A stretch of DNA of 64,000 nt from Thioalkalivibrio nitratireducens DSM 14787 (lineage in GTDB: Bacteria > Pseudomonadota > Gammaproteobacteria > Ectothiorhodospirales > Ectothiorhodospiraceae): the NCBI RefSeq assembly GCF_000321415.2, contig NC_019902.2:372001-436000 (forward strand). Reading direction: 5' to 3'. Shown here piece after piece: positions 2,499 to 62,452 of this stretch (the stretch's first letter is position 1; each line of letters opens with the position of its first letter). The position numbers and the translations under genes were made by a program. A model generated the notes under the pieces. It had not been told where the DNA came from and did no database searches. It saw only the letters and a program-made list of their open reading frames with translations.

Positions 2499-3404
<906 letters not shown>

Positions 3405-3409
3405 TTATC

Positions 3410-5006
3410 TTAGCGTGAAAGAACCTGACGTTGGGGCGAGCGAGATTCTGGCGTGACGCATGCCGGTGCGCAAATGCCTGCTTGCGGGACTCGAAGAGCC
3501 TGTGTGGCGGCTCAGGTGGCGGTGAGATAGCCGTGCTTTTCCAGCATCTTCAGCCAGCGCGGCGCGTTGCGCTGCACGACGAGAGCCTCGTAATCGACGG
3601 TGCGGTCCTGGTAGGGGGTCGCATGATTGAGCATGGCGTAGACGATGCGCAGGAGCTTGTGCGCCAGGGCCACGATGGAGCGCTTGTGTCCCTTGCGGAT
3701 GGACAAGGCCGAAAACTTGTCCTTGAGCGCACAGCGGGTGCGGGAGGCGGCTTGCGCGAACTCGCACAGCAGGCGACGGACCCAGGCGTTGCCCTTGCGC
3801 GTGCGTCCGCTCTTGCGTTTACCGGCGCTCTCGTGGTTGCCGGGGCAGATGCCGACCCAGGAAGCCAGGCGTTCCGCGTTGCCGAAGCTCGCCATGTCGG
3901 TGCCGATTTCGACGAGCAGCATGGCGGCGCCAATGCGGTCGATGCCGGGCACGGTTTCCAGCAGGCACACCTGCGGTTCCCAGGGGGCCAGACCCGCAAG
4001 CAGTTCCTGTTCGAAGCGGGCGATCATGGCCTCGAGGTACTCGATGTGCGCCAGAACCTCGTTGAGCACGAAGCGGTGCCTGGTGCTCAGTTCCTCCGGT
4101 TGCAGGGCTTCGAACAGTTCTTCGCGGGAAGCCCGCAGGCGGCCGGCGAGGTCGAGGATCGCGTGCATGGGGGCATCGGCGAGCAGGGCCTTGATCATGG
4201 CCCGTGCCGACGCGCCGTGTACGTCGGAGACCAGCACGTTCAGGCGAATCCCGGCATCGGTCAGCACCTTGTGCAGCCGGTTCTTCTCCGCGGCCAGCAT
4301 CCCGACCAGCTTCTGGCGCTGCCGGGCGATCAGGCGCAGATGGCGGATCTCGGCCGGAGGAATGAACGAAGCCCGCAGCAGACCGGCACGGGCCAGCGTG
4401 GCCAGCCACTGGGCATCGGAGAGGTCGGTCTTGCGGCCAGGCACGTTTCGGGCGTGACGGGCATTGACCACCCAGGCCATGACGCCCACACGCTCAAGGG
4501 CCGCATAGGGGCTCTTCCAGTAGATCCCAGTGCTCTCCATCACCACGACCTCGGGTCAAACCCGCGAACCCACTCGGCCAACGCCCGCCGATCGCGCTTG
4601 AAACCACCAAACTCCCGGTGCTCCACCGCCACACTGCCATCGGGCTGCTCGATCAGCGCACAGGCCGTGATCTTGCTCTGGTGCACATCCAGACCGACAA
4701 CGCGCCGGTGAATCGGGGTAATGTCCATGCTGACCTCCTCGGGCAAACGCACTATCCTTCACGATGTGCTGTCGCCAAGGGCGCCGTCCTTCAACGGCCT
4801 GTCGGGACTCGACGGCTCTTTTTAGCGTGCGCTGTCCATGACCCTTCCAGGCCATGCCAGGCAATCCGGGGTACGAGTGAAGGGCAGCGGGTCGAGTTAG
4901 CGTGCGCGGTCAGGCGCCATCAAGAATTATCGCGACCTCAGCCCGACGCGACAGCACGCCCATTATCTTTCATCATCGGGGGTGCCGCGCGCCCGGCGGC
5001 ATGACA
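3410..5006 (-). mobile_element. IS110-family element, copy 1 (defective)
   Basis: A 1.6-kb element on the minus strand, over 98% alike by eye to the copies at 10299, 11919, 48841 and 52990. Both ends carry CACGCTAA (complement at 3410-3417 and 5008-5015). There are no long terminal inverted repeats and no evident target duplication, as usual for the IS110 family. The transposase gene has a one-base deletion. The right end abuts unique DNA before argB; the left end joins a unit C repeat. Joining the two flanks gives TTTTCACGCTAA followed by GATAAGG as the probable empty site. Confidence 0.9.
3512..4728 (-). pseudogene. IS110-family transposase, frameshifted (copy 1)
   Basis: Compared with the intact gene at 10577-11815 this copy lacks one G in a run of four at about 4553-4556, next to the codons for FDPEVVVMES. 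The first 59 residues are therefore out of frame with the remaining roughly 345. The start ATG at 4728 and its ribosome binding site (GAGGAGGT) are intact. The C-terminal SAGK serine motif and the CCCCC run that is shortened in copies 3-5 are also intact. It also differs from the other copies by scattered substitutions and by GCGATC instead of GCAATC, which suggests an older, separate insertion. Confidence 0.9.
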
Positions 5007-5189
5007 GTTAGCGTGAAAATCCAGCCACGGAAGAATACGGAAATCACGGAGGAGGAAACGGATCAAACCTTTTTTCCGTGTCTGTCGGTGCTTTCCGTGG
5101 CTCGCCTTTTCATCTTGCAGGGCGGCCGCGCAGCGTTCGCGCAGGCTGAACAAAGCGCGTGCCGCTTGCCGGGTTCCGTTCCCGGGCGC
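4729..5189. repeat. IS110 left end, junction and unit C repeat between the element and dut
   Basis: 4729-5006 is the non-coding left end of element copy 1. At 5007-5022 lie the CACGCTAAC junction and the edge of the unit C repeat. Unit C fills about 5023-5102: it opens with AGCCACGGAA and closes with the complementary TTCCGTGGCT, with further CACGGA/TCCGTG pairs inside, so the whole 80 bases can fold as one long imperfect hairpin. 5103-5189 is a short spacer before the dut stop codon in which nothing else is recognised. Confidence 0.75.
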
Positions 5190-6887: not shown

Positions 6888-7021
6888 AGCTTACCGCAAA
6901 CACCCCGGCGAGCCGTACGCGGTGCGGGCGAAGCCGTTCGCGATGCCTCGCGACGGCGCTTGGCCTGTGGCCGCTGGCATGGTATCAAACGCGCTGGGAA
7001 AGCGGCCACAGGGAGGTGTTG

Positions 7022-7693
7022 GTGGCAATCACTGACTGGCCGGAGGACGATCGTCCCCGGGAAAAACTGCTGCGGCGCGGGCCGGCGGCATTGTCCGATG
7101 CGGAACTGCTGGCAATCTTCTTGCGCACCGGTGTCGCAGGCAAGAGCGCGGTGGACCTCGCGCGCGAGCTGCTGACCCACTTCGGGGGGTTGCGCGCGCT
7201 GTTGCAGTCGGATCAGATGGCCTTCTGCCATGCCCGCGGGCTCGGCGATGCGAAGTACGCGCAACTGCAGGCGGTGCTGGAGATGGGGCGGCGCCACCTG
7301 GCCGAATCGTTGCAGCGCGGCGATGCGATCACTTCGCCGACTGCGACCCGGGCCTTCCTGTCGGCCCGATTGCGCGACTATCCGTTCGAGGTCTTCGCGT
7401 GTCTGTTCCTGGACAACCGGCACCGAGTAGTCGCGTTCGAGGAGCTCTTCCGCGGCACCATCGACGGTGCGAGCGTGCATCCGCGCGAGGTCGTGCGCCG
7501 GGTGCTGCACCACAACGCCGCGGCGGTGATCCTGGCGCACAATCACCCCTCCGGGGTGGCCGAACCCTCGCGGGCCGACGAGGCGATCACGCGGCGGCTG
7601 CGCGAGGCCTTGGGGCTGGTGGACGTGCGCGTGCTGGACCATGTGATCGTCGCCGACGAGATCGTCTCCTTCGCCGAGCGCGGGCTCCTCTAG
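7022..7693 (+). CDS. radC: RadC family JAB/MPN domain protein
   Basis: 223 residues from GTG 7022. This start gives the usual family beginning ([16 protein letters not shown]) and is preceded by GGGAGG at 7011-7016. An N-terminal helix-hairpin-helix region (GLRALLQSD to [11 protein letters not shown]) is followed by the metalloprotease-like JAMM domain with AHNHPSG and a downstream aspartate. Despite its name RadC is not established as a repair enzyme, and its substrate is unknown. The gene stands divergent to coaBC-dut, the common gammaproteobacterial arrangement. Confidence 0.93.
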
Positions 7694-7944
7694 TGGGCCT
7701 GCGGGAAGCCCGAGGCGTTTGGAGTACAGCCGGGCGCGTCCGAGCAACGCGGGCCAGTGCCGGAATGGCGAACCTGTTTCCAGCTGGCCCAACGCAGCGC
7801 CGGCGTTGTCTGGCGAAGGGACCTGGTGATCAACGTCCCGCATGGCCCGCGGCCGGGCATCGTGTCGGTTCCCGAAACTGCTAGCATTCGAGGCAGGCAT
7901 GGCTAACTGTCGCACGGCCGGCGGCGATCGGGAGAGGCGGGCAC

Positions 7945-9147
7945 ATGGTCAAGGGGTTCAGCATTGCGCGATTGCCGCGCATCGAGTTCGGTTCCGGGGC
8001 GCGGCGCCAGCTGCCGGCGCTGGCGGCCGGGTTCGGGCGGCGGGTTCTGCTGGTGACCGGCGGGCGGTCGTTGTTGGAGGGGCCGTTCTGGCCCGAGATC
8101 GACACCGGCTTTTCCAGCGCGGGTCTGAACGTGATGGTGCACCGGGTTCCGGGCGAGCCTTCGCCGGAGGAGATCGATGCGGCGGTTCAGCGCTATCGCG
8201 GCCGCGAGATCTCGGCCGTGGTCGCGATCGGCGGAGGCAGCGCGCTCGACGCGGGCAAGGCGATCGCGGGACTTCTGATCCAGGGAAATCCGGTGCTGGA
8301 CCACTTGGAAGGAGTCGGACCGGAGCGCCCCTACCACGGACCCTCGGTCCCGTTCATCGCGGTCCCCACCACCGCGGGTACCGGCTCCGAGGCTACCAAG
8401 AATGCCGTGCTGAGCCGGCAGGGGGCCGATGGCTACAAGAAATCGTTTCGGCACGAGCGCCTGGTAGCCAGATACGCGGTGATCGACCCGGATTTTCTCA
8501 GTACCTGTCCGCCCCGGGTGATTGCGGGTAACGGCATGGACGCGCTGACCCAGCTGCTGGAATCGTATCTCTCGCTGCGTTCGAACCCGTTCTGCGATGC
8601 GCTCGCGCTCGACGGCATGGTCCAGGCGCGCGACAGCCTGTTCGTGCTCTATGGCGATCCCGGGAATGCGGGTGCTCAGGCGGGCATGGCCTACGCGTCG
8701 CTGTTGTCCGGGATCACGCTGGCCCAGGTTGGCCTGGGCTCGGTGCACGGTCTGGCCGCGCCGCTGGGGGCGTTTTTCCCGATTCCCCACGGGGCCGCCT
8801 GCGGGACACTGGTGGCGGCGGCCACAGCCGTGAACATCCGGGCACTGAACGCAAGGGAACCCGCGCATCCGGCGCTGGCGCGGTACGCGCATGTCGGCCG
8901 CCTGTTGACCGGCGAGGCGCTGCCGGACGACGATCAGGCCCGTGCGGCGCTAGTGCGCCTGCTCGAGGACTGGACCGAGAGGCTGCATTTGCTGACGCTC
9001 GATCAGTACGGGATACGCCCGGAGGACCATCCCGGGATCGTGGCCAACAGCCGGGGTTCCAGCATGAAGACCAACCCGATCCGACTCTCCGACGAGGAGA
9101 TCACGGCGATCCTCGAGATGCGCCAGCAGCGTCCGGAACCCGCATGA
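7945..9147 (+). CDS. Iron-containing alcohol dehydrogenase family protein
   Basis: 400 residues, the usual length of group III (Fe-type) dehydrogenases. The N-terminal NAD(P)-binding half shows the GGGS motif (AIGGGSALDAGKA) and PTTAGTGSE. The C-terminal metal half has NGMDALTQLLESY, SVHGLAAPLG and IPHGAACG. In typical members the metal is held by Asp and three His. Here Asp and the last two His are present, but the residue four positions after the Asp is Gln rather than His. The physiological alcohol or aldehyde cannot be inferred. It stands alone, with the DsrE2-like gene convergent downstream. Confidence 0.9.
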   Translation: MVKGFSIARLPRIEFGSGARRQLPALAAGFGRRVLLVTGGRSLLEGPFWPEIDTGFSSAGLNVMVHRVPGEPSPEEIDAAVQRYRGREISAVVAIGGGSALDAGKAIAGLLIQGNPVLDHLEGVGPERPYHGPSVPFIAVPTTAGTGSEATKNAVLSRQGADGYKKSFRHERLVARYAVIDPDFLSTCPPRVIAGNGMDALTQLLESYLSLRSNPFCDALALDGMVQARDSLFVLYGDPGNAGAQAGMAYASLLSGITLAQVGLGSVHGLAAPLGAFFPIPHGAACGTLVAAATAVNIRALNAREPAHPALARYAHVGRLLTGEALPDDDQARAALVRLLEDWTERLHLLTLDQYGIRPEDHPGIVANSRGSSMKTNPIRLSDEEITAILEMRQQRPEPA

Positions 9148-9186
9148 GTCTGGCGCCCCACGGGGGTGATCGTGGTCGGCCGGTCA

Positions 9187-9648
9187 TCAGATGAACAGGC
9201 AGACGTCGGATTCGCCGGCGAAGTCGAAGAAGGTGGTCGCACCCCCATATTCCACGCCATCGATGAAGTCGCTGGGTCGCCAGTCGAACAGGTCAACGGT
9301 CATCTGGCACGCGACCAGACGGACCCCTGCCTCCAGGCAGAGGTCGCGCAGTTCTGCGATTTCGGCGACGCCCTTGGCGCCGATCCGGCGCTTCATCATC
9401 GCGGTTGCGAGGTACTGTGCCCCCGGCATGGCCTGCAGCAGCACCGGCAGGCGCAGCGGCATGCCGGGATTGCCCATCGGGCTGACCCGCAGGTTCAGGT
9501 CGCGCTTAAGCAAGTGCAGACCGTAGAAGGTGAAAAACATCTTGCAGTCGTAGCCCAGCGCGGCGCCGGTCGAAGCCAGGATGAACGGCGGATAGGCCCA
9601 GTCGAGGGAGCCCTTGGTGGCGATGATCGCGATACTCTTTTCCGGCAT
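9187..9648 (-). CDS. DsrE/DsrF-like family protein (DsrE2 type)
   Basis: 153 residues. The sequence begins with a Rossmann-like strand and loop (SIAIIATKGSLDWAYPP) and has the long internal insertion of methionine- and proline-rich sequence that marks the DsrE2 group. The conserved cysteine is Cys114 in VACQMTVDLF, in the place where related proteins carry persulfide sulfur. DsrE2 proteins are associated with sulfur trafficking in sulfur oxidisers, usually next to TusA and a rhodanese; neither gene is near here. The 3' end converges on the alcohol dehydrogenase; upstream is the first mosaic repeat block. Confidence 0.87.
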   Translation of the reverse strand: MPEKSIAIIATKGSLDWAYPPFILASTGAALGYDCKMFFTFYGLHLLKRDLNLRVSPMGNPGMPLRLPVLLQAMPGAQYLATAMMKRRIGAKGVAEIAELRDLCLEAGVRLVACQMTVDLFDWRPSDFIDGVEYGGATTFFDFAGESDVCLFI

Positions 9649-10298
9649 GCAGGTCGGGCTCCGTTACACTAGAAACGCGGTGCGCGCTTCCACATTAGCT
9701 CTCATGGCCCCGGGGCACCCCTGAGCACGAAAGCCGATCGACCAGAGGGCTGGTCCGCGGGGCGCATTGGCGTCTGGGGTGGCCCGCCATGCTGGAATCT
9801 ACCCTGCAGGAGCGAGCCTCGCCCGCGAAACCGCGTCGGATTGGCCGCCAGCGCCGGGCGCGCCTGCGGCGCATTCGCCTGCAAGGCACGCTCCACGGGG
9901 GCGCGCGGGCATGGTCGCGGCGGCTTTCACGCTAGCTTTCATGGCCAGCGGCCACCCCGCAAGATGACAAGGCGAGCCACGGAAGGCACGGACAGCGACG
10001 GAAACAAGGTTCGATCCGTTTCATCGTCTGTGATTTCCGTGTTCTTCCGTGGCCGGATTTTCACGCTAACTGTCATGCCCTCGGCCGCGAGGCACCCCGA
10101 AGGATGAAACTACGATTATAAATCAGAGACATACGATTCTAGGGCGGCGTATTTTCACGCTAACTTTCATGGCCAGCGGCCACCCCGCAAGATGAAAAGA
10201 CGAGCCACGGAAAGCACGGAAAGACACGGACAAGGGGTTGGATCCGTCTCATCTTCCGTGATTTCCGTGTCCTTCCGTGGCTGCATTTTCACGCTAAC
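9649..10298. repeat. Mosaic repeat block 1 (order A'-A-C-A-B-A-C), no gene
   Basis: This 650-base stretch has no credible gene; its open frames are translations of repeats. A decayed unit A lies at 9688-9732 (hairpin GCCCCGGGGC) and another unit A at 9925-9969 (hairpin TGGCC/GGCCA). Unit C follows at 9975-10054, unit A at 10058-10109 (hairpin CCTCG/CGAGG), unit B at 10110-10150, unit A at 10151-10197 and unit C at 10203-10282. It ends with CACGCTAAC at 10290-10298, where IS110 copy 2 begins. 9733-9924 holds GC-rich sequence with nothing recognised. Confidence 0.85.
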
Positions 10299-10338
10299 TG
10301 TCATGCCGCCGGGCGCGCGGCACCCCCGATGATGAAAG

Positions 10339-10560
10339 ATAATGGGCGTGCTGTCGCGTCGGGCTGAGGTCGCGATAATTCTTGATGGCGCCTGACCGCG
10401 CACGCTAACTCGACCCGCTGCCCTTCACTCGTACCCCGGATTGCCTGGCATGGCCTGGAAGGGTCATGGACAGCGCACGCTAAAAAGAGCCGTCGAGTCC
10501 CGACAGGCCGTTGAAGGACGGCGCCCTTGGCGACAGCACATCGTGAAGGATAGTGCGTTT
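10339..10560 (+). ncRNA. Candidate bridge-type guide RNA in the IS110 left end
   Basis: IS110-family elements with a long non-coding left end are known to transcribe a structured bridge RNA whose loops pair with the target and with the element ends. Here the left end carries CACGCTAA at 10401-10408 and again at 10476-10483, the same sequence as both element boundaries and the insertion site. TCATGGACAG just before the second copy is close to the complement of the right half of the site. Short hairpins follow, such as GTCGAGTCCCGAC and CCGT/ACGG near 10490-10525. The same region is conserved in all five copies. The RNA ends given are approximate and its existence is inferred. Confidence 0.4.
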
Positions 10561-10576
10561 GCCCGAGGAGGTCAGC

Positions 10577-11815
<1,239 letters not shown>

Positions 11816-11918
11816 GCCGCCACACAGGCTCTTCGAGTCCCGCAAGCAGGCATTTGCGCACCGGCATGCGTCACGCCAGAATCTCGCTCGCCCCAACGTC
11901 AGGTTCTTTCACGCTAAC

Positions 11919-13504
<1,586 letters not shown>

Positions 13505-13513
<9 letters not shown>

Positions 13514-13879
13514 GATCATGTCTTCGGGGGTGAGGCACCCCGAAGGATGAAAATCGGACACGGAAAACACGGACAGACACGGACAAGGGGTTTGATCCGT
13601 CTCATCTTCCGTGATTTCCGTGTCCTTCCGTGGCTGTATTTTCACGCTAACTTTCATGCCCTCGGCCGCGAGGCACCCCGAAGGATGAAACTACGATTAT
13701 GAATCAGAGACATACGATTCTCGGGCGGCGTATTTTCACGCTAACTGCTATGCCCCCGGGCGTGACACGCTTCGAAGGATGAAAACGGGCCACGGATGAA
13801 CACGTAAGCCTGCCGAAAAGACTCTCAATACCCTTCATTTTCTGTAATTTCCGTGTCCTTCGGTCGCTGCCTTCAACCG
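13505..13879. repeat. Mosaic repeat block 2 (order A-C-A-B-A'-C'), no gene
   Basis: Between the end of IS110 copy 3 and bioF. A unit A variant lies at 13501-13553 with an unusually long hairpin (CTTCGGGG paired with CCCCGAAG). Unit C follows at 13557-13634, unit A at 13638-13690 (CCTCG/CGAGG), unit B at 13691-13731, a diverged unit A at 13732-13784 and a worn unit C at 13788-13869. The block reaches ten bases short of the bioF stop codon, so the DNA that would hold later genes of a biotin operon has been replaced or lies elsewhere. Confidence 0.85.
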
Positions 13880-48505: not shown

Positions 48506-48840
48506 CCGGAACGCAATAGGATCCGTTTCGGCTGGCCCGGTCATCCAACGGCGGCGGCGTGGTCTGACCACAGTAACCAGTGGTTTCAATTGATGATCAT
48601 GCCCAGAAACCGCTTGATTAGCACTTTGGGGCATCCATTCCTGGCCTAACTCCCATGCCCTTGAGCTTGAGGCCCCGAAGGATGAAAACCGGCCGCGGAA
48701 GCCCACGGAAATAGTGCAAGACATGGGATGCCCGTAATTTTCCGTGTTGTCCGTGTTCTTCCGTGGCTGGATTTTCACGTCAAAATGTCATTAATAATCA
48801 TAGGTATGTGATTCCAGATCGGTGTATTTTTGCCGCTAAC
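48506..48840. repeat. Mosaic repeat block 3 (order D-A'-C-B'), no gene
   Basis: Unit D at about 48548-48650 (contains CCACAGTAACC, TGGTTTCAATTGA and ATTCCTGGCCTAAC) has a diverged partner at about 52614-52718. A worn unit A (48641-48687, ending CCCCGAAGGATGAAA), unit C (48691-48768) and a diverged unit B (about 48784-48826) follow. The block ends with GCCGCTAAC at 48832-48840, a variant of CACGCTAAC, where IS110 copy 4 begins. Confidence 0.8.
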
Positions 48841-50426
<1,586 letters not shown>

Positions 50427-50440
<14 letters not shown>

Positions 50441-50538
50441 TGTCATGCCCTCGGCCGCGAGGCACCCCGAAGGATGAAAATACGATTATGAATCAGAGAG
50501 ATACGATTCCCGGGCAGCGTATTTTCACGCTAACTGCG
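50427..50538. repeat. Mosaic repeats A-B after IS110 copy 4
   Basis: Unit A at 50427-50479 (hairpin CCTCG/CGAGG, shared junction with the element end) is followed by unit B at 50480-50520 and a terminal ATTTTCACGCTAAC at 50521-50534. Unique sequence leading to the sulfite dehydrogenase gene starts immediately after. Confidence 0.8.
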
Positions 50539-52613: not shown

Positions 52614-52989
52614 GGGCGGTGCGGCGGGGTCGGGCCACAGTAACTGATGGTTTCAATTGAGATTCTTTCCTAGAACCACTCGATTGGTGCCTTAAAACAT
52701 ACATTCCTGGCCTAACTGTCATGGCGCGTGCAGCCACCCCCGATGATGAAAGAGGCGTAGGCCGTCATCCGCCAGCCGGCGTTGGGGATGCTGCGGGCGC
52801 CTGGGCACTGCGAACGCCATGTGGCGGATGACGCTGCGCTCTTCCGCCCTACGGGTCGCCAGGGACACGAGACAGGCCGTGACTTTCACGCTAACTGTCA
52901 TGCCCTCGGCCGCGAGGCACCCCGAAGGATGAAACTACGATTATAAATCAGAGACATACGATTCTAGGGCGGCGTATTTTCACGCTAAC
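52614..52989. repeat. Mosaic repeat block 4 (order D-A'-F-A-B), no gene
   Basis: Unit D at about 52614-52718 is the diverged partner of 48548-48650. A variant unit A lies at 52706-52751. Unit F, about 52754-52860, has inverted ends (GTAGGCCGTCATCCGCC at the left, GGCGGATGACGCTGCGCTCT at the right) and matches 913-972 in the opposite orientation. Unit A at 52882-52934 and unit B at 52935-52975 follow, ending in CACGCTAAC at 52981-52989 where IS110 copy 5 starts. Confidence 0.8.
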
Positions 52990-54576
<1,587 letters not shown>

Positions 54577-54590
<14 letters not shown>

Positions 54591-54684
54591 TGTCATGCCC
54601 TCGGCCGCGAGGCACCCCGAAGGATGAAAATACGATTATAAATCATAGACATACGATTCTATGGCGGCGTATTTTCACGCTAAC
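54577..54684. repeat. Mosaic repeats A-B after IS110 copy 5
   Basis: Unit A at 54577-54629 (CCTCG/CGAGG hairpin) and unit B at 54630-54670, ending in ATTTTCACGCTAAC at 54671-54684. The same A-B order follows copy 4. Confidence 0.8.
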
Positions 54685-56302: not shown

Positions 56303-57625
56303 TCAGCCCAGCGGTTTGACCAACACCTTCGAGTTGCGCGCCTGGTTGTACAGCGCCTGCCGCGAAGGTGGCAGTTCGGTGACCTGCCCCTCGCGGTAGC
56401 CGCGTTCCTGGAACCACTGTGCGGTGCGGGTCGTCAGCACGAACACCTGGCGGTGGCCGCGTCGCCGGGCCAGCGTCTCGATGTGTTCCAGGATCTGGTC
56501 GCCGCGCCCGCCGCCGCGGTACTCCGGATGTAGTGCGAGGCAGGCGATCTCGGCGGCCTGGGTCTCCGGGAACGTGTACAGCGCCGCGGTGCCGATGATC
56601 AGACCGTCGGCGTCGAGTACCTGGAAGCAGTCGATCTCGAGTTCCAGGTGCTCGCGCGAGCGCCGTACCAGGATCCCCTCGCTTTCCAGCGGCTGGATCA
56701 GGTCGAAGATGCCGCCGACGTCGTCGACGGTTGCGGCACGCAGCCGTTCCACCGGCTCGCGGCTGACCAGCGTGCCGATGCCGCGCCGCGAGAACAGCTC
56801 GATCAGCAGGCCGCCGTCGATGTGGCGGTCGACGAGGTGCACGCGCAGGTCGTGTACGGTGCAGACTTCGATCGCGCTGCGCAGATGGGCCGCGAGTTCC
56901 TCGGGCAATCGGGAGTCGGTCGCGAGCAGTTGTTCGGCTGCCGGCACCGTCAACTGCGTCAGCATCTCCCGTTGCCGGTCGCGCAGCGGGCCGGCCTCGG
57001 TCAGGAACACCAGCTTGTCCGCCTTCAGTGCAGCTGCGACCTGGGTCGCAACGTCCTCGCCGGACAGGTTGAATACCTCCCCGGTCGGCGAGTAGCCGAG
57101 CGGCGATACCAGCACGATCTGCCCCTCGTCGAGCAGGCGGGCGATGCCCTGTGCGTCCACCCGGCGAACCTCGCCCGTGTATTGGAAATCGACGCCTTCG
57201 CGCACGCCGAGCGGGCGTGCGGTCACGAAGTTGCCGCTGGCGACGCGCAGCCTTGCGCCGGCAATGCCGGGACTGCCCAAGTTGCGCGACAGCAGCCCCT
57301 CGATGTGCAGTCGCAGCCGACCCACGGCGTCACAGACCGCCTCGAGCGCATCGGCATCGGTGACCCGCAGACCAGCGGCGTAGCGCGGCGCCAGCCCCCG
57401 CTCGCGCAGCCGCACCTCAATCTGCGGCCGCGCGCCGTGCACCAGCACTACGCGCGTGCCCAACGCCCGCAGTTGTGCGATGTCACGCAGCAGCGTCGGG
57501 AAGGCCGGCGCCTGCGCGGCCTCGCCCGCAATGGCGATGACCATGGTTCGGTCGCGGTGCGCGGCGACGTAGGGGACCGCCGCGCGGAACCAGTCAAGTC
57601 CGGTCTGTTGCTGCTCGGTCTCCAT
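56303..57625 (-). CDS. argA: N-acetylglutamate synthase
   Basis: 440 residues from METEQQQTG (57625; a start three codons earlier exists). It acetylates glutamate with acetyl-CoA, the first step of arginine synthesis. The N-terminal half is an amino acid kinase-like domain (VVLVHGARPQIEVRLRERG, LVSPLGYSPTGEVFNLSGED) that binds arginine in homologues. The C-terminal GNAT domain begins near residue 290 and has IACLALHPEYRGGGRGDQIL for acetyl-CoA. Length and fusion match classical ArgA. argB is at the far end of the window. Confidence 0.95.
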   Translation of the reverse strand: METEQQQTGLDWFRAAVPYVAAHRDRTMVIAIAGEAAQAPAFPTLLRDIAQLRALGTRVVLVHGARPQIEVRLRERGLAPRYAAGLRVTDADALEAVCDAVGRLRLHIEGLLSRNLGSPGIAGARLRVASGNFVTARPLGVREGVDFQYTGEVRRVDAQGIARLLDEGQIVLVSPLGYSPTGEVFNLSGEDVATQVAAALKADKLVFLTEAGPLRDRQREMLTQLTVPAAEQLLATDSRLPEELAAHLRSAIEVCTVHDLRVHLVDRHIDGGLLIELFSRRGIGTLVSREPVERLRAATVDDVGGIFDLIQPLESEGILVRRSREHLELEIDCFQVLDADGLIIGTAALYTFPETQAAEIACLALHPEYRGGGRGDQILEHIETLARRRGHRQVFVLTTRTAQWFQERGYREGQVTELPPSRQALYNQARNSKVLVKPLG

Positions 57626-57857
57626 TGCCCCCAACGCCGCTCTTACGCACCTCTATCAAAGGTCCACCGCCCTCTAAGGCGATTTCTGTCAAACAAGATA
57701 CCGTCTTGCTGGTCTTTTGGTCCGTCCGCTGCGTTGCCCTCCCGGTTGCATGGAACCACAATGCGCCCGGGATGGCGCCTTGCCGACGAACGAAAATCCG
57801 GTACCCTGTTTTCCGGCAATCGCCTAAGGCCCGTGCGTATCGCCTGAAAGCTGCATC

Positions 57858-58257: not shown

Positions 58258-59493
58258 ATGGCCAAGACCGAAACCCCGTTATCCGGGCTCGCGCCATCGC
58301 GGCGGGCGGCTGGCCCCGCGGTGGCGGATCGCCTGTCCCACGATCCGGTCGAGCCAGCGCGGGAGCCAGGGATCCGGCCGGCAACACTTGATGACCTCGA
58401 TGCCCTCGTGGGACTGGAGCAGGCATGTTTCGAGGGCGACCGGATCTCGCGGCGGCAGTTTCGCTACCTGCTGACGCGCGGCCATGCGCGGACGCTGGTG
58501 GCCCCCGATCCCGCCGGTTCCAGCCTGATCGGCTACGTGATGGTGTTGTTCAGCCGGGGCACTTCGCTGGCGCGGCTGTACTCGATCGCGGTAAGCGGTG
58601 GTGCCCGGGGCCTCGGGCTGGGGCGGCGCCTAGTGGCGGCGGCCGAGGCGGCGGCGATCGAGAATGCCTGTGCCGATCTGCGCCTCGAGGTGCGTCGGGA
58701 CAACGCCGCGAGCCTCGCGCTGTTCCGGGGCATGGGATACCGCGATTTCGGCACCATCGAGGATTACTACGAGGACCACATGGAGGCGCTGCGGCTGCAG
58801 AAGTCGCTGGCGCCGGGCCCCGATCCCGCTTTGGTGCGGGCCCCGTTCTATGCGCAGACGCTCGACTTCACCTGCGGATCGGCGGCGCTGATGATGGCGA
58901 TGCGCGCGGTCGATCCCGGCGTGAAGCTTGACCGCAAGCTCGAACTGCGGGTCTGGCGCGAGGCGACGACGATCTTCATGACCTCGGGACACGGCGGCTG
59001 CGGGCCGTACGGGTTGGCGCTCGCGGCAGCGCACCGCGGCTTCGAGGTGGAACTGCTGGTGCGCGACACCGGAGTCGCGTTCTTCGACTCGGTACGCAGC
59101 GCGGACAAGAAAAGGGTGATGCAACTGGTGCAGGAGGACATGGTCAAGGAACTGGAACGCCTGCAGGTGCCGATTGTGCACGGTCCGGTGAATGTCGGGG
59201 CGTTGGAGGACCGTTTCCACGCCGGCCGGGTGCCGGTGGTGCTGATCAGCAGCGTGCGTATCTACGCCGAGCGCTTCCCGCACTGGGTCACCGTGACCGG
59301 CTTCGACGAGCGTTTCATTTACGTGCACGATCCGCTGGTCGACGTCGAGGAGGGCGAGCGGGCCGTCGATTCGATCAACATGCCGATCCTGCGCCGCGAT
59401 TTCGAACGGATGGCGCGCTATGGGCGCGCGGGACTGCAGGCGGCCGTGATCGTGGGTCCCCGTGACCTGAAGGAGCCGGGAACGGATGTCTGA
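58258..59493 (+). CDS. GNAT acetyltransferase fused to a C39-like peptidase domain
   Basis: 411 residues. Residues about 38-175 form a GNAT (RimI-like) domain: GIRPATLDDLDALVGLEQ, the acetyl-CoA loop GARGLGLGRRLVAAAE and FRGMGYRDFG. Residues about 195-400 form a C39-like papain-fold domain with the probable catalytic Cys206 (QTLDFTCGSAALMMAM), His342 (HWVTVTGFD) and Asp358. It has no signal peptide or membrane helix, so it is not a bacteriocin transporter. The next gene, an ATP-grasp ligase, overlaps by eight bases; together they suggest modification and trimming of a peptide or small molecule, which is inference. Confidence 0.87.
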   Translation: MAKTETPLSGLAPSRRAAGPAVADRLSHDPVEPAREPGIRPATLDDLDALVGLEQACFEGDRISRRQFRYLLTRGHARTLVAPDPAGSSLIGYVMVLFSRGTSLARLYSIAVSGGARGLGLGRRLVAAAEAAAIENACADLRLEVRRDNAASLALFRGMGYRDFGTIEDYYEDHMEALRLQKSLAPGPDPALVRAPFYAQTLDFTCGSAALMMAMRAVDPGVKLDRKLELRVWREATTIFMTSGHGGCGPYGLALAAAHRGFEVELLVRDTGVAFFDSVRSADKKRVMQLVQEDMVKELERLQVPIVHGPVNVGALEDRFHAGRVPVVLISSVRIYAERFPHWVTVTGFDERFIYVHDPLVDVEEGERAVDSINMPILRRDFERMARYGRAGLQAAVIVGPRDLKEPGTDV

Positions 59494-60976
59494 GCACCTG
59501 CTGCTGATCGAACGCAAGGCGGACTGGAAGGCGCATTTCCCGAGGCTCCCGGTGGCCGAGGTCGACGCCTATCTGAAGGCGTCCTCCGAGCGCTATTCCG
59601 CGAGCCTACGGGTGATCAATCTCTGCCGTAGCCAGCGTTATCTTTCCGAGGGGTATTACGGCTCGCTGCTGGCCGAGGCGCGTGGTCACCGGGTGATTCC
59701 CAGTGTGCGCACGTTGCAGGACCTGTCGCGCAAGGCGATCTACAGCCTCGACACCGAGGATCTCGACCGCAAGGTGGGCCGGGTTCTGGGGCGCAGCCGG
59801 GCGGGGCTGCAGCCGATCGCGCTGGAGCTGACGATGTTCTTCGGACAATGCGCGGCGAAGGAGATGCAGGAGATCGCGGCGCAGCTGTTCGCGCTGTTTC
59901 CCGCGCCGATGTTCCGGGTCGAGTTCCGGCTGCAGGGCGAGCAGTGGCAGATCCACGCGTTGAAGCCGTTCGCGCTGAACTCGCTGTCCGCAGCGCAGGA
60001 AGTGGAGTTCTTCACCGCGCTGGAAGGCTACCTGAAGAAGCCGTTCCGTCGGCCGCGCGGCGCGAAGAGCCACCGCTACGATCTGGCGATCCTGCACAAC
60101 CCCGGCGAGCAACTCGCGCCGTCGAGCACGGCGGCCCTGAAGCGGTTCGTGCGCGCCGGGCGCGCGCTCGGGGTCGACGTCGAGCTGATTCAGGCCCGCG
60201 ACTTCGGCCGGCTGGCGGAGTTCGACGCATTGTTCATCCGCGAGACCACGCGCATCGACCACTACACCTACCGCTTCGCGCGCAAGGCCGAGGGCGAGGG
60301 CATGGTCGTGATCGACGATCCGAACTCGATCCTGCGCTGTACCAACAAGGTGTACCTGGCCGAGCGGCTGGCGGCGCAGAAGGTGCCGACGCCGAAGACC
60401 GTGATCCTGAACCGCGACACGATCCTGCGCGCCGAGGAGTTGATCGGCTACCCGGTGGTGCTGAAGATTCCGGACGGCAGCTTCTCCCGTGGGGTGTTCA
60501 AGGCGAGCAGCCGTTCGGAGCTCGAGTCGATCGCGAAGAAGCTGCTCAAGGAGAGCGACCTGATCCTTGCGCAGGAGTTCGTGTACACCGACTACGACTG
60601 GCGCATCGGCCTGCTGAACAAGAAGCCGCTGTACGCTTCGCAGTACCTGATGTCGCGCCAGCACTGGCAGATCGTGAACCACGACGCCAAGGGCGGACCG
60701 CGCCAGGGGGGCTTCAACACCGTCGACATCGCCGACGCGCCGGCCGCGGTGGTGCGCACTGCGGTGAAAGCTGCAAACCTGATCGGTGACGGCCTCTACG
60801 GGGTCGACCTGAAGCTGACCGAGCGCGGCGTGATGGTAATCGAGGTCAACGACAACCCGAATCTGGATGCCGGGGTCGAGGACAAGGTGCTCGGCGAGAC
60901 CTTATACCGGGCGGTGATGGAGGATTTTGTGCGCCGGCTGGACACGGCCCGGCGCAGCCAAGCTGTACCGGGCTGA
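59486..60976 (+). CDS. RimK-like ATP-grasp ligase with an N-terminal RLAN-type domain
   Basis: 496 residues. The N-terminal 200 residues (starting HLLLIERKADWKAHFPR) match the domain that precedes some RimK-like ligases. From about residue 270 the ATP-grasp fold is clear: KVYLAERLAAQKVPTPKTV, PVVLKIPDGSFSRGVFKA for the nucleotide lid, LILAQEFVYTDYDWRIGLL and the metal-binding end VMVIEVNDNPNLDAGVED. RimK-type enzymes join amino acids such as glutamate to protein or peptide ends. It overlaps the GNAT-C39 gene by eight bases and the two are surely cotranslated. Substrate unknown. Confidence 0.88.
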   Translation: MSEHLLLIERKADWKAHFPRLPVAEVDAYLKASSERYSASLRVINLCRSQRYLSEGYYGSLLAEARGHRVIPSVRTLQDLSRKAIYSLDTEDLDRKVGRVLGRSRAGLQPIALELTMFFGQCAAKEMQEIAAQLFALFPAPMFRVEFRLQGEQWQIHALKPFALNSLSAAQEVEFFTALEGYLKKPFRRPRGAKSHRYDLAILHNPGEQLAPSSTAALKRFVRAGRALGVDVELIQARDFGRLAEFDALFIRETTRIDHYTYRFARKAEGEGMVVIDDPNSILRCTNKVYLAERLAAQKVPTPKTVILNRDTILRAEELIGYPVVLKIPDGSFSRGVFKASSRSELESIAKKLLKESDLILAQEFVYTDYDWRIGLLNKKPLYASQYLMSRQHWQIVNHDAKGGPRQGGFNTVDIADAPAAVVRTAVKAANLIGDGLYGVDLKLTERGVMVIEVNDNPNLDAGVEDKVLGETLYRAVMEDFVRRLDTARRSQAVPG

Positions 60977-61019: not shown

Positions 61020-61379
61020 TCAATCCAGATAGGTCTTGGCTTCCTCGCCGGGGTTGGGAAGTCCGGCGATCCGCCACACGGGCAGGCAGCCGCCGAAGAG
61101 GTCGTAGATCTCTTCGCGCGACATGCCGGTTGCCTTGCAGACGCGCCGCATGCCGGGCATGCCGCCCAATGCCAGGTAACGTTCGCGCACGTGGTGCAGC
61201 AGTTTCCAGTGCCGTTCGTCCAATGCTCCCACGCCTTCGCGCCGGGCGATGCGCTCGGCCAGCGCCTCGTTCCAGTGCTCGTGGTCGACCACGAACCCGT
61301 CCTCGTCGAACAGGGTGCCGGGCTCTGCGAACAGCTGCGAGTTGGGTCTGGACGTGGAGGGTTCCGGGATCCTCAGCAT
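61020..61379 (-). CDS. DsrC/TusE-family sulfur-carrier-like protein lacking the terminal cysteine
   Basis: 119 residues from the ATG at 61379, with GGAGA upstream. The fold region LFDEDGFVVDHEHWNEALAE and the C-terminal MRRVCKATGMSREEIYDLFG match DsrC/TusE proteins. The C-terminal arm reads GGCLPVWRIAGLPNPGEEAK and ends KTYLD: one cysteine (Cys98) remains near the usual inner position, but the penultimate cysteine needed for sulfur relay or trisulfide formation is absent. Such variants exist beside true DsrC in sulfur oxidisers and may be regulatory. It is divergent from a CysB-like regulator. Confidence 0.85.
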   Translation of the reverse strand: MLRIPEPSTSRPNSQLFAEPGTLFDEDGFVVDHEHWNEALAERIARREGVGALDERHWKLLHHVRERYLALGGMPGMRRVCKATGMSREEIYDLFGGCLPVWRIAGLPNPGEEAKTYLD

Positions 61380-61507
61380 GGTGATGTCTCCGTGTGGCTT
61401 GGGTCGTGGTGCCGGCGGATCGTGCCGCGGCGCCATGAAATGGAGTATCGACCTGCCCGCATATCAAGTAAAATAATGAAGCATGCATTTATATTGTCCT
61501 TATTGAT
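61380..61507. promoter_or_regulatory. Divergent promoter region between the DsrC-like and CysB-like genes
   Basis: An AT-rich island at 61459-61509 in an otherwise GC-rich region. It is flanked by inverted ATATCAA (61461-61467) and TTGATAT (61503-61509), the latter overlapping the LysR start codon. LysR-family regulators commonly bind such divergent regions. No ribosome binding site precedes the LysR ATG at 61508. Confidence 0.45.
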
Positions 61508-62452
61508 ATGGAGCTCCGGCAACTCCGTTCCCTGGTGACGCTGGCCGAGAGCGGATTCAGCGTCAGCCGTGCGGCGCAGCAATTGCACCTGGTCCAGCCC
61601 GCGGTTTCGCAGCACCTGCGGCTGCTGGAGGAGGCGCTGGGAACCCCGCTGTTCCTGCGCCATGGCAAGCGGCTGGTGGGCCTGACCGAGGCGGGGGACA
61701 AGGTGCTGGGGCATGCCCGCAGCATGCTGGCCGAGGTCGCGAACATCGTGGCCGTGGGGCGCGACCACGTGGAGGAAGCCCGCGGTGTGCTGCGCATCGG
61801 CACCACGCATACCCAGGCCCGCTACGTGCTGCCGCCGGTGCTGCTGGAATTCAAACGGGCGTACCCCGAGGTCGAGGTGCAGATCCACCAGGGCACGCCG
61901 GCCCAGCTGGTCGAGATGGCATTGGCGGATCGTGTGGACCTGGCGGTCTGTACCGAGGCCGTTGGCGATCATGCGGCCCTAGTCACCCTGCCATCGTATC
62001 GCTGGAACCGCTGCCTGATCACGCCCCCGGGGCATCCGCTGCTGGAACGAAGGCCGATCTCGCTCGGGGCGCTCTGCGAATACCCGATAATCACCTACGT
62101 GTTCGGCTTCACGGGAAGGACCAGCCTCAGCCAGACCTTCGCGAAGGTGGGCCTGCACCCCCGGGTGGTGCTGAGTGCAGCCGATGCCGACGTGATCAAG
62201 ACCTACGTACGGTCCGGCATGGGCATCGGCATCATCGCTGATCTAGCATTTCACCCGGAACACGACCAAGACCTGGAGCGCCGCGATCTGAGCCACCTGT
62301 TTCCCTGGGAGGTCACCCGGCTCGCCTACCCGCGGGGCAAGTACGTGCGCCGTTTCCAGCAGCGGTTCATCGACCTGTTTCAGCAGGAGGCGGATCGCAT
62401 CGGCAGGGGAGGGGGGGCGGGCGCGACGGTGTCCCGCCGCGCGGACCTGTGA
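61508..62452 (+). CDS. LysR-family regulator, CysB-like
   Basis: 314 residues. The N-terminal winged helix (MELRQLRSLVTLAESGFSVS, then AAQQLHLVQPAVSQHLRLLE) is followed by a periplasmic-binding-like effector domain. It contains TTHTQARYVLPPVLLEFKRA and the IHQGTPAQLVEM segment characteristic of CysB/Cbl, which sense O-acetylserine, sulfate or related sulfur compounds. It is divergent from the DsrC-like gene, which it may control. The C-terminus is a low-complexity Gly-rich tail. It is not certain that it is CysB itself. Confidence 0.87.
   Translation: MELRQLRSLVTLAESGFSVSRAAQQLHLVQPAVSQHLRLLEEALGTPLFLRHGKRLVGLTEAGDKVLGHARSMLAEVANIVAVGRDHVEEARGVLRIGTTHTQARYVLPPVLLEFKRAYPEVEVQIHQGTPAQLVEMALADRVDLAVCTEAVGDHAALVTLPSYRWNRCLITPPGHPLLERRPISLGALCEYPIITYVFGFTGRTSLSQTFAKVGLHPRVVLSAADADVIKTYVRSGMGIGIIADLAFHPEHDQDLERRDLSHLFPWEVTRLAYPRGKYVRRFQQRFIDLFQQEADRIGRGGGAGATVSRRADL

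Follow-up and report, generated by a model that had tools for sequence, protein, structure and literature searches.

A conserved acetyltransferase-ligase pair with an optional C39-like peptidase: a candidate N-acetyl-peptide synthetase in Pseudomonadota

What might an acetyltransferase, a papain-like peptidase and an ATP-grasp ligase do together when two overlapping genes encode all three? The question is raised by positions 58258-60976 of a 64,000-nucleotide stretch of the Thioalkalivibrio nitratireducens DSM 14787 genome (NC_019902.2, 372,001 to 436,000), hereafter the window, where a sequence-only reading had noted a GNAT-C39 fusion overlapping a RimK-like ligase and had proposed a peptide-tagging or peptide-modification pathway. 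Comparison across the phylum shows that the constant pair is the acetyltransferase and the ligase and that the peptidase is not part of the core. With a probability of about 0.45, we read the pair as an N-acetyl-peptide synthetase with an attached hydrolase, the C39 domain trimming or degrading the product. The locus consists of the following features.

58258..59493, plus strand: GNAT-C39 fusion protein (protein 1), 411 aa; open reading frame (ORF) list and Pfam, AlphaFold2 mean predicted local distance difference test score (pLDDT) 88
58363..58818, plus strand: RimI/Ard1-type GNAT domain, residues 36-187; VIA-align, conservation and family alignments
58843..59454, plus strand: DUF3335/C39-like cysteine peptidase domain, residues 196-399; PF11814, 277 bits
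58873..58875, plus strand: codon of the presumed catalytic Cys206; position check and conservation
59281..59283, plus strand: codon of His342; position check and conservation
59329..59331, plus strand: codon of Asp358; position check and conservation
59486..60976, plus strand: RLAN/ATP-grasp ligase (protein 2), 496 aa; ORF list and Pfam, AlphaFold2 mean pLDDT 88
59486..59493, plus strand: 8-base overlap of both reading frames; sequence
59564..60016, plus strand: RLAN domain, residues 27-177; PF14401, 164.7 bits against a cut-off of 25
60077..60946, plus strand: RimK/LysX/ArgX-type ATP-grasp fold, residues 198-487; VIA-align and conservation

The pairing itself is confirmed as real rather than a chance arrangement, because the two proteins are found as neighbours again and again across many genomes and their overlap recurs as well, in agreement with the coupled pair that the sequence-only reading had described. 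Bases 59486-59493 (ATGTCTGA) belong to both genes, the ligase start sitting within the end of the first gene, and among the 22 same-strand pairs measured an 8-base overlap is also found in loci L065, L068, L070 and L071, which suggests translational coupling of GNAT-C39 and ligase. To describe the locus more widely we compared 101 loci: the window, 80 named loci that are the best 80 of at least 586 relatives ranked by similarity to the window and are biased to its kin, and 20 from sampled genomes of other families that were not ranked in this way. Single linkage at 72% identity places the ligases in 48 groups. The ligase has a homologous GNAT as its neighbour at 97 of the 101 loci, and in 45 of the 48 groups. 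The C39 domain is present at 71 loci and was not found at 30, counts that may miss some domains at the several loci that end at contig ends; it is linked in 56 of the 80 named loci, where the seeds differ from those of the larger count. At 26 loci a GNAT is present and no C39 was found. The 19 GNATs aligned from C39-lacking named loci are short proteins of 127-183 aa, all of which keep the glutamate and carry Tyr-Tyr or Phe-Tyr at positions 170-171. On a tree of the 101 ligases, the product of a quick search in which 12 long end branches were flagged, the distribution of the C39 domain requires at least 12 gains or losses, with 10 of these events forced by well-supported branches and a shuffled mean of 25.9. 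The genes may also share a strand, diverge, or stand with the ligase first, and this variation shows that their linkage is not that of one frozen operon. At one locus, L158, GNAT, RLAN and ATP-grasp form a single 659-aa ORF (7553-9532) with a GNAT-C39 gene adjoining on the opposite strand, and this GNAT-ligase fusion suggests that one substrate is passed between the two sites.

The same asymmetry is seen at the level of whole genomes. Among 299 genomes drawn evenly from the phylum, and not ranked by similarity to the window, RLAN is found in 56, spread across 24 families of the sample, and DUF3335 in 47. RLAN is present in 46 of the 47 DUF3335 genomes, with 8.8 expected (the Fisher values for co-occurrence treat genomes as independent, though they are related), and the two lie within 5 kb of each other in 44 of the 46 genomes that have both. 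Conversely, DUF3335 is missing genome-wide from 10 of the 56 RLAN genomes, and in all nine of these that were examined (G057 was left out) a GNAT homologue stands beside the ligase. The dependence is one-sided: the C39 domain relies on the ligase, not the reverse. The three-activity pathway of the sequence-only reading is supported in part: acetyltransferase and ligase are its constant members, and peptide cleavage lies outside the core. The sole DUF3335 genome without RLAN, G008, encodes a 233-aa protein (L214) with no recognisable GNAT. Of 14 control genomes one, Methanosarcina acetivorans, contains DUF3335 and RLAN was not found there, so DUF3335 is not tied to RLAN everywhere. In the window's own family 33 of 47 genomes carry DUF3335, and the window's genome has one RLAN. 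Genome G197, which has a normal pair elsewhere, carries two extra DUF3335 genes with no recognisable GNAT (L215, 4133-5194 and 13189-14397) that flank genes resembling, by eye, an ATP-binding cassette (ABC) peptide importer. Carriage by phages was rejected, as 50,697 records gave no match up to E 1e-20.

We examined the residues of the individual domains in alignments of 39 GNAT-C39 proteins and 45 ligases, the window included, thinned at 80% identity; rows holding N were left out, as were 18 stand-alone GNATs, L077 and L126 from the GNAT-C39 set. The peptidase half of protein 1 matches PF11814 (DUF3335, 'Peptidase_C39 like family') well above the cut-off of 25 bits, and the ORF coordinates, Pfam and conservation agree with the fusion and with Cys206, His342 and Asp358 as the sequence-only reading had placed them. 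These three residues and the oxyanion glutamine, Gln200, are identical in 39 of 39 proteins. The DUF3335 domain thereby appears to keep the papain-like/C39-like Cys-His-Asp triad and oxyanion Gln, and this invariance argues against an inactive C39 domain, which the sequence-only reading had named as a possible refutation of its proposal. The exporter-type C39 profile PF03412 is absent from the Pfam matches of protein 1 up to E 0.01, as is any ABC domain. A PDB sequence search with the C39 half returned marginal unrelated matches and no peptidase, and in fold searches with full-length protein 1 the hit lists were filled by GNAT structures.

The other half of protein 1 matches PF00583 at residues 55-161 (E 4.8e-13, 49.8 bits against a cut-off of 20.7). 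Glu144, Asn149, Tyr170, Tyr171 and Asp173 are invariant in all 39 proteins. Most of these also retain the acetyl-CoA loop, with Gly118 in 30 of 39, Gly120 in 34 and either Gly or Ala at position 122 in 38. The model of residues 36-187 aligns in VIA-align with archaeal Ard1 at Z 22.5, with RimI at 22.1 and with eukaryotic NatA subunits at about 20.5-22, and profile alignments bring out shared LEVR..N...LY..GY and YY.D motifs. By profile, fold and the Glu and YY motif the domain is of the N-terminal acetyltransferase type of the superfamily. As RimI, Ard1 and NatA are enzymes of alpha-amine acetylation, the acceptor predicted from these structural neighbours is likely to be an N-terminal amine, whether on a protein, a peptide or an amino acid. 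The RimI equivalog TIGR01575 is missed, at 63.8 of 86.4 bits. Most relatives lack an equivalent of the first ~38 residues of protein 1, and AlphaFold2 models residues 1-30 poorly (pLDDT below 50); translation may therefore begin downstream of 58258.

Protein 2 matches RLAN (PF14401), the extra N-terminal domain seen by the sequence-only reading, and a RimK-type ATP-grasp family in Pfam. In VIA-align its AlphaFold2 model (residues 198-487) aligns with LysX and ArgX at Z 28.3 (root-mean-square deviation 2.0-2.6) and with RimK at Z 27.4; the search used full-length protein 2, and its hit list was taken up by ATP-grasp structures. Protein 2 falls below the cut-offs of RimK (TIGR00768, 90.2 of 143.4 bits; NF007764, 43.9 of 331) and of LysX (TIGR02144, 92.2 of 275.6). 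The window ligase shares 44-53% identity with ten relatives from across the phylum, and all 45 aligned ligases keep Lys288, Lys327, Asp441, Glu453 and Asn455. Since the key residues are invariant across the aligned relatives, all three active sites (GNAT, C39 and ligase) look functional.

If the pair acted on a dedicated peptide, its gene might be expected nearby, and the sequence-only reading had proposed a search for conserved small ORFs beside the pair. That search gave a negative answer: the 101 loci hold 2702 ORFs of 20-100 aa no further than 1.5 kb from the pair, and none of them is common to more than two of the 48 groups. As a control, 30-45-aa pieces of GNAT or ligase from the named loci linked 22-27 of 24-27 groups in 11 of 12 settings; the setting that failed used a variable 30-aa ligase piece, which linked 3 of 27 groups. 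Because the control pieces were recovered and no small ORF was, the pair is unlikely to have a conserved precursor, carrier or leader peptide encoded beside it. A very variable precursor would escape this comparison, and one encoded elsewhere is possible.

A second hydrolase does recur at the locus. DUF2817 (PF10994; 311 bits in L138, where it also gives a weak match to AstE/aspartoacylase, AspA) is found close to the ligase at 10 of 101 loci, which represent 7 of 48 groups, and RLAN is present in 25 of 40 DUF2817 genomes, with 7.5 expected. DUF155 (RMND1-like, PF02582) lies near the ligase in 5 of 101 loci from 5 groups, the match in L068 being just 25% identical, and RLAN is present in 19 of 31 DUF155 genomes, with 5.8 expected. 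Shared ancestry inflates both genome counts, family f33 supplying many of the genomes; we rejected DUF155 as a partner, much of its count coming from this one family. At the threshold used, DUF2817 and DUF155 are both absent from the window's genome.

A small N-acetylated non-ribosomal peptide fits these observations because GNAT and ligase are constant and can be fused, because the C39 domain depends on the ligase and is yet dispensable, and because a second hydrolase recurs and no precursor gene is seen. The N-acetyl-amino-acid genes argA and argE, which adjoin the pair at some loci, also speak for it. In the pathway that we propose, the RimI/Ard1-like GNAT would transfer the acetyl group of acetyl-CoA to the alpha-amine of a short peptide or amino acid. 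The RLAN/ATP-grasp enzyme would then activate a carboxylate of the acetylated molecule as an acyl-phosphate with ATP and couple it to an amino acid in the manner of RimK and LysX, a step suggested by the fold and by conservation of the ATP-site residues; its substrate and direction are predicted, and RLAN would presumably hold the substrate. Where present, the C39-like domain would cleave the product, which would be trimmed or switched off, and in some lineages the DUF2817 (AstE/aspartoacylase-like) enzyme might make a second hydrolysis. The product would be a small N-capped non-ribosomal peptide that stays in the cell.

Such a logic has a precedent. The osmolyte N-acetylglutaminylglutamine amide (NAGGN) is made by AsnO and by Ngg, in which a GNAT and an ATP-grasp domain are joined (TIGR03103), together with an M42 peptidase. 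As in the window pair, a GNAT and an ATP-grasp ligase form a unit with a peptidase gene linked, and the L158 fusion has the GNAT/ATP-grasp order of NAGGN synthetase. In contrast to NAGGN, the window pair has no adjoining AsnO, its peptidase is unrelated to M42, and its ligase belongs to another ATP-grasp family and carries RLAN. TIGR03103 scores 14.8 of 569 bits on protein 1, missing its cut-off, is not among the 25 families listed of the 28 that the ligase matches, and has no match in the window's genome. The pair thus appears to resemble NAGGN in logic, not in membership. At one NAGGN locus (L213, G006:C1:235000-254000, 10508-13809) GNAT-C39, DUF2817 and DUF155 genes follow a complete NAGGN trio on the same strand; in that genome the ligase and GNAT lie 2.1 Mb from the trio. 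A link to NAGGN was rejected, as this arrangement is repeated in none of 20 further NAGGN loci (L235 and L239 being short contigs) and co-occurrence is at chance.

Several observations weigh against an N-acetyl-peptide synthetase. The closest folds, RimI, Ard1 and RimK, mostly act on proteins, and substrate and product are predictions that draw on domains, conservation and gene linkage. No link to the NAGGN pathway emerged: NAGGN synthetase and RLAN co-occur in 7 of the 299 genomes against 5.1 expected (p 0.31), and GNAT-C39, DUF2817 and DUF155 genes are nearby in just one of 21 NAGGN loci, L213. The acetyltransferase is not always seen with the ligase. No GNAT occurs in the available DNA at L066, L074, L075 and L137, of which L137 alone is flanked on either side by about 10 kb of DNA; no GNAT comes within 7 kb of the ligase in a P. 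aeruginosa plasmid block (L243); and in G193 the ligase lacks a neighbouring GNAT, GNAT-C39 being encoded on another contig. The C39 domain keeps its own GNAT even where another GNAT accompanies the ligase (in L158, and in the one genome that holds L152 and L213), a feature for which the synthetase model does not account. Finally, in a comparison within the family (20 loci, of which L196 showed no RLAN and was left out, leaving 19), argA and argE are missing in 11 of the 19 loci with RLAN, and their linkage elsewhere may be an inherited neighbourhood.

A close rival, nearly as likely, is that the pair modifies the ends of proteins: the ligase would extend the C-terminus of one or a few housekeeping proteins encoded elsewhere by an amino acid, the GNAT would acetylate an N-terminus, and C39 and DUF2817 would erase the marks. 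Papain-like and M14 enzymes are the erasers in the tubulin tyrosination and glutamylation cycles. This explanation draws on the closeness of the GNAT to the RimI/Ard1 N-terminal acetyltransferases (Z ~22) and of the ligase to RimK, LysX and ArgX, enzymes whose target is ribosomal protein S6 or the carrier LysW. It needs no adjacent substrate gene and, with its targets encoded elsewhere, accounts equally for the absence of one. Against it, the bit scores for RimI, the RimK family and LysX all fall below their cut-offs, the search for a substrate, which was confined to the neighbourhood, produced no candidate there, and the L158 fusion suggests a single substrate moving between sites. The likeness to RimK (S6/poly-alpha-glutamate ligase) and RimB extends to the ATP-grasp fold and to the pairing of a ligase with a peptidase; the window ligase differs in its extra N-terminal part of ~190 residues with RLAN and in its GNAT partner, and the peptidase of the pair is a cysteine enzyme, whereas RimB is aspartic. 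In the accessible text of PMC12239564, RimB, an unrelated peptidase, strips the glutamates added by RimK, a reversal that also favours protein-end modification. LysX and ArgX, which work with the carrier LysW, are the closest solved structures to the ligase, but no conserved carrier-sized small ORF lies near the pair. These results give no preference to peptide tagging, as first proposed, over a pathway that makes a small acetylated peptide.

We consider a side branch of amino-acid biosynthesis very improbable. Here the ligase would use a LysW-like carrier or an N-acetylated arginine intermediate, which would explain a divergent neighbour that is context rather than part of the cassette:

56303..57634, minus strand: argA (N-acetylglutamate synthase); NF003641, 583 bits

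That LysX and ArgX are the best solved relatives of the ligase speaks for such a branch, as do the neighbouring genes: argA or argE is divergent near the ligase in the window, L064, L072, L075 (where no GNAT was seen) and L150, 4 of the 101 loci have argE close to the ligase, and argA/argE lie beside the pair in 8 of the 19 family loci (both genes in L191-L193; argA alone in L197-L199, L202 and L210). The 11 loci that lack them speak against it, and we retain argA/argE as no more than a weak hint, having rejected them as partners. Moreover, the window holds a canonical argA and, by eye, an argB-like ORF at 2499-3377, so the normal arginine route seems intact, and no conserved small ORF nearby would serve as a LysW-like carrier. 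Equally improbable is a ribosomally synthesised and post-translationally modified peptide whose leader the C39 domain removes and whose core the ligase and GNAT decorate, as in graspetides or bacteriocins: both C39 peptidases and ATP-grasp enzymes are known from such pathways, but the small-ORF search was negative with working controls, exporters are rare beside the pair, PF03412 has no match and the C39 domain is dispensable at the locus.

Other neighbours were considered as partners and set aside. Of the 101 loci, 2 have an ABC-ATPase-like ORF no more than 3 kb from the pair; at a limit of 10 kb the number rises to 21, from 6 groups. An initial mixed ABC-ATPase cluster (22 loci, scattered positions) yielded no recurring exporter on closer checking, in keeping with the earlier remark that no export gene is nearby. 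A gene for a CorA-type Mg2+ transporter lies 3' of the ligase on the same strand in 17 Pseudomonas-type loci between L082 and L136, with a gap within 8 bases in 15 of the 17; CorA was rejected as a partner, these loci amounting to just one of 48 groups (Pseudomonas). A defence system was likewise rejected, both proteins matching 0 PADLOC families up to E 0.001.

In L243, on the P. aeruginosa plasmid pZYPA1927, the ligase (6911-8500) shares a block with genes for a glutamate/aspartate ABC importer, with ggt and pagP, and with a short-chain dehydrogenase gene, perhaps a chromosomal segment carried on the plasmid. The identification of PA1345 as this ligase rests on gene order, including that in L243, and PA1343 we take to be pagP. 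PA1344 is a short-chain dehydrogenase in the accessible text of PMC10413270. A CpxR site is predicted before PA1345 by motif only, without support from DNA affinity purification sequencing (DAP-seq), and PA1345 was not found among the CpxR-regulated genes tabulated in the accessible part of that source (PMC12802237).

Downstream of the pair, the window contains a DsrC/TusE-like gene at 61020-61436 on the minus strand (Pfam, 68.6 bits against a cut-off of 24.9; TIGR03342, 51.8 of 53.5, just below) and, divergent from it, a CysB-like LysR regulator at 61508-62452 on the plus strand. Five repeat copies of ~1.6-1.7 kb, 97-99% identical and one of them inverted, lie at 3410-5129, 10286-11961, 11907-13554, 48810-50534 and 52960-54684; their ORFs resemble by eye an IS110-type transposase, and the last copy ends ~3.6 kb before the pair.

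The sequence-only reading had called this pair its least explained system, and it is less so than that suggests, as the domain families and the GNAT fusion are already described in the accessible text of a review of papain-like peptidases (PMC10318531). There, DUF3335 members are said to be often fused to GNAT domains, with reference to Iyer et al. 2009, and this is the same fusion as in the window protein; that text makes no mention of RLAN, the optional C39 domain, the DUF2817 and DUF155 partners or the GNAT-ligase fusion. DUF3335 is not named in the accessible parts of PMC12239564, PMC2922099, PMC12802237 or PMC10413270. Open-literature searches found no experimental study of the pair or its substrate, and mentions within full texts are possible. 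Iyer et al. 2009 reportedly predicted peptide-synthesis or tagging pathways with RimK-like ligases and may hold part of the present anatomy. The window copy is an ordinary member of a known, functionally unsolved kind, and what is new here is the anatomy of the system, namely its core and accessory parts and the missing precursor.

A widespread, conserved pair that nearly always includes an acetyltransferase points to a common bacterial metabolite, or a common protein modification, missed so far. More tentatively than for the synthetase itself, we can envisage a widespread unrecognised N-acetylated peptide metabolite in Pseudomonadota, made by the GNAT and the RLAN ligase and turned over by C39 or DUF2817, which would be a second, independently evolved counterpart of NAGGN; if so, roughly one in five of the 299 sampled genomes would have such a metabolite system. 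As the C39 domain is optional and depends on the ligase, the contrast between ligase and C39 active-site mutants would offer a direct test of product turnover.

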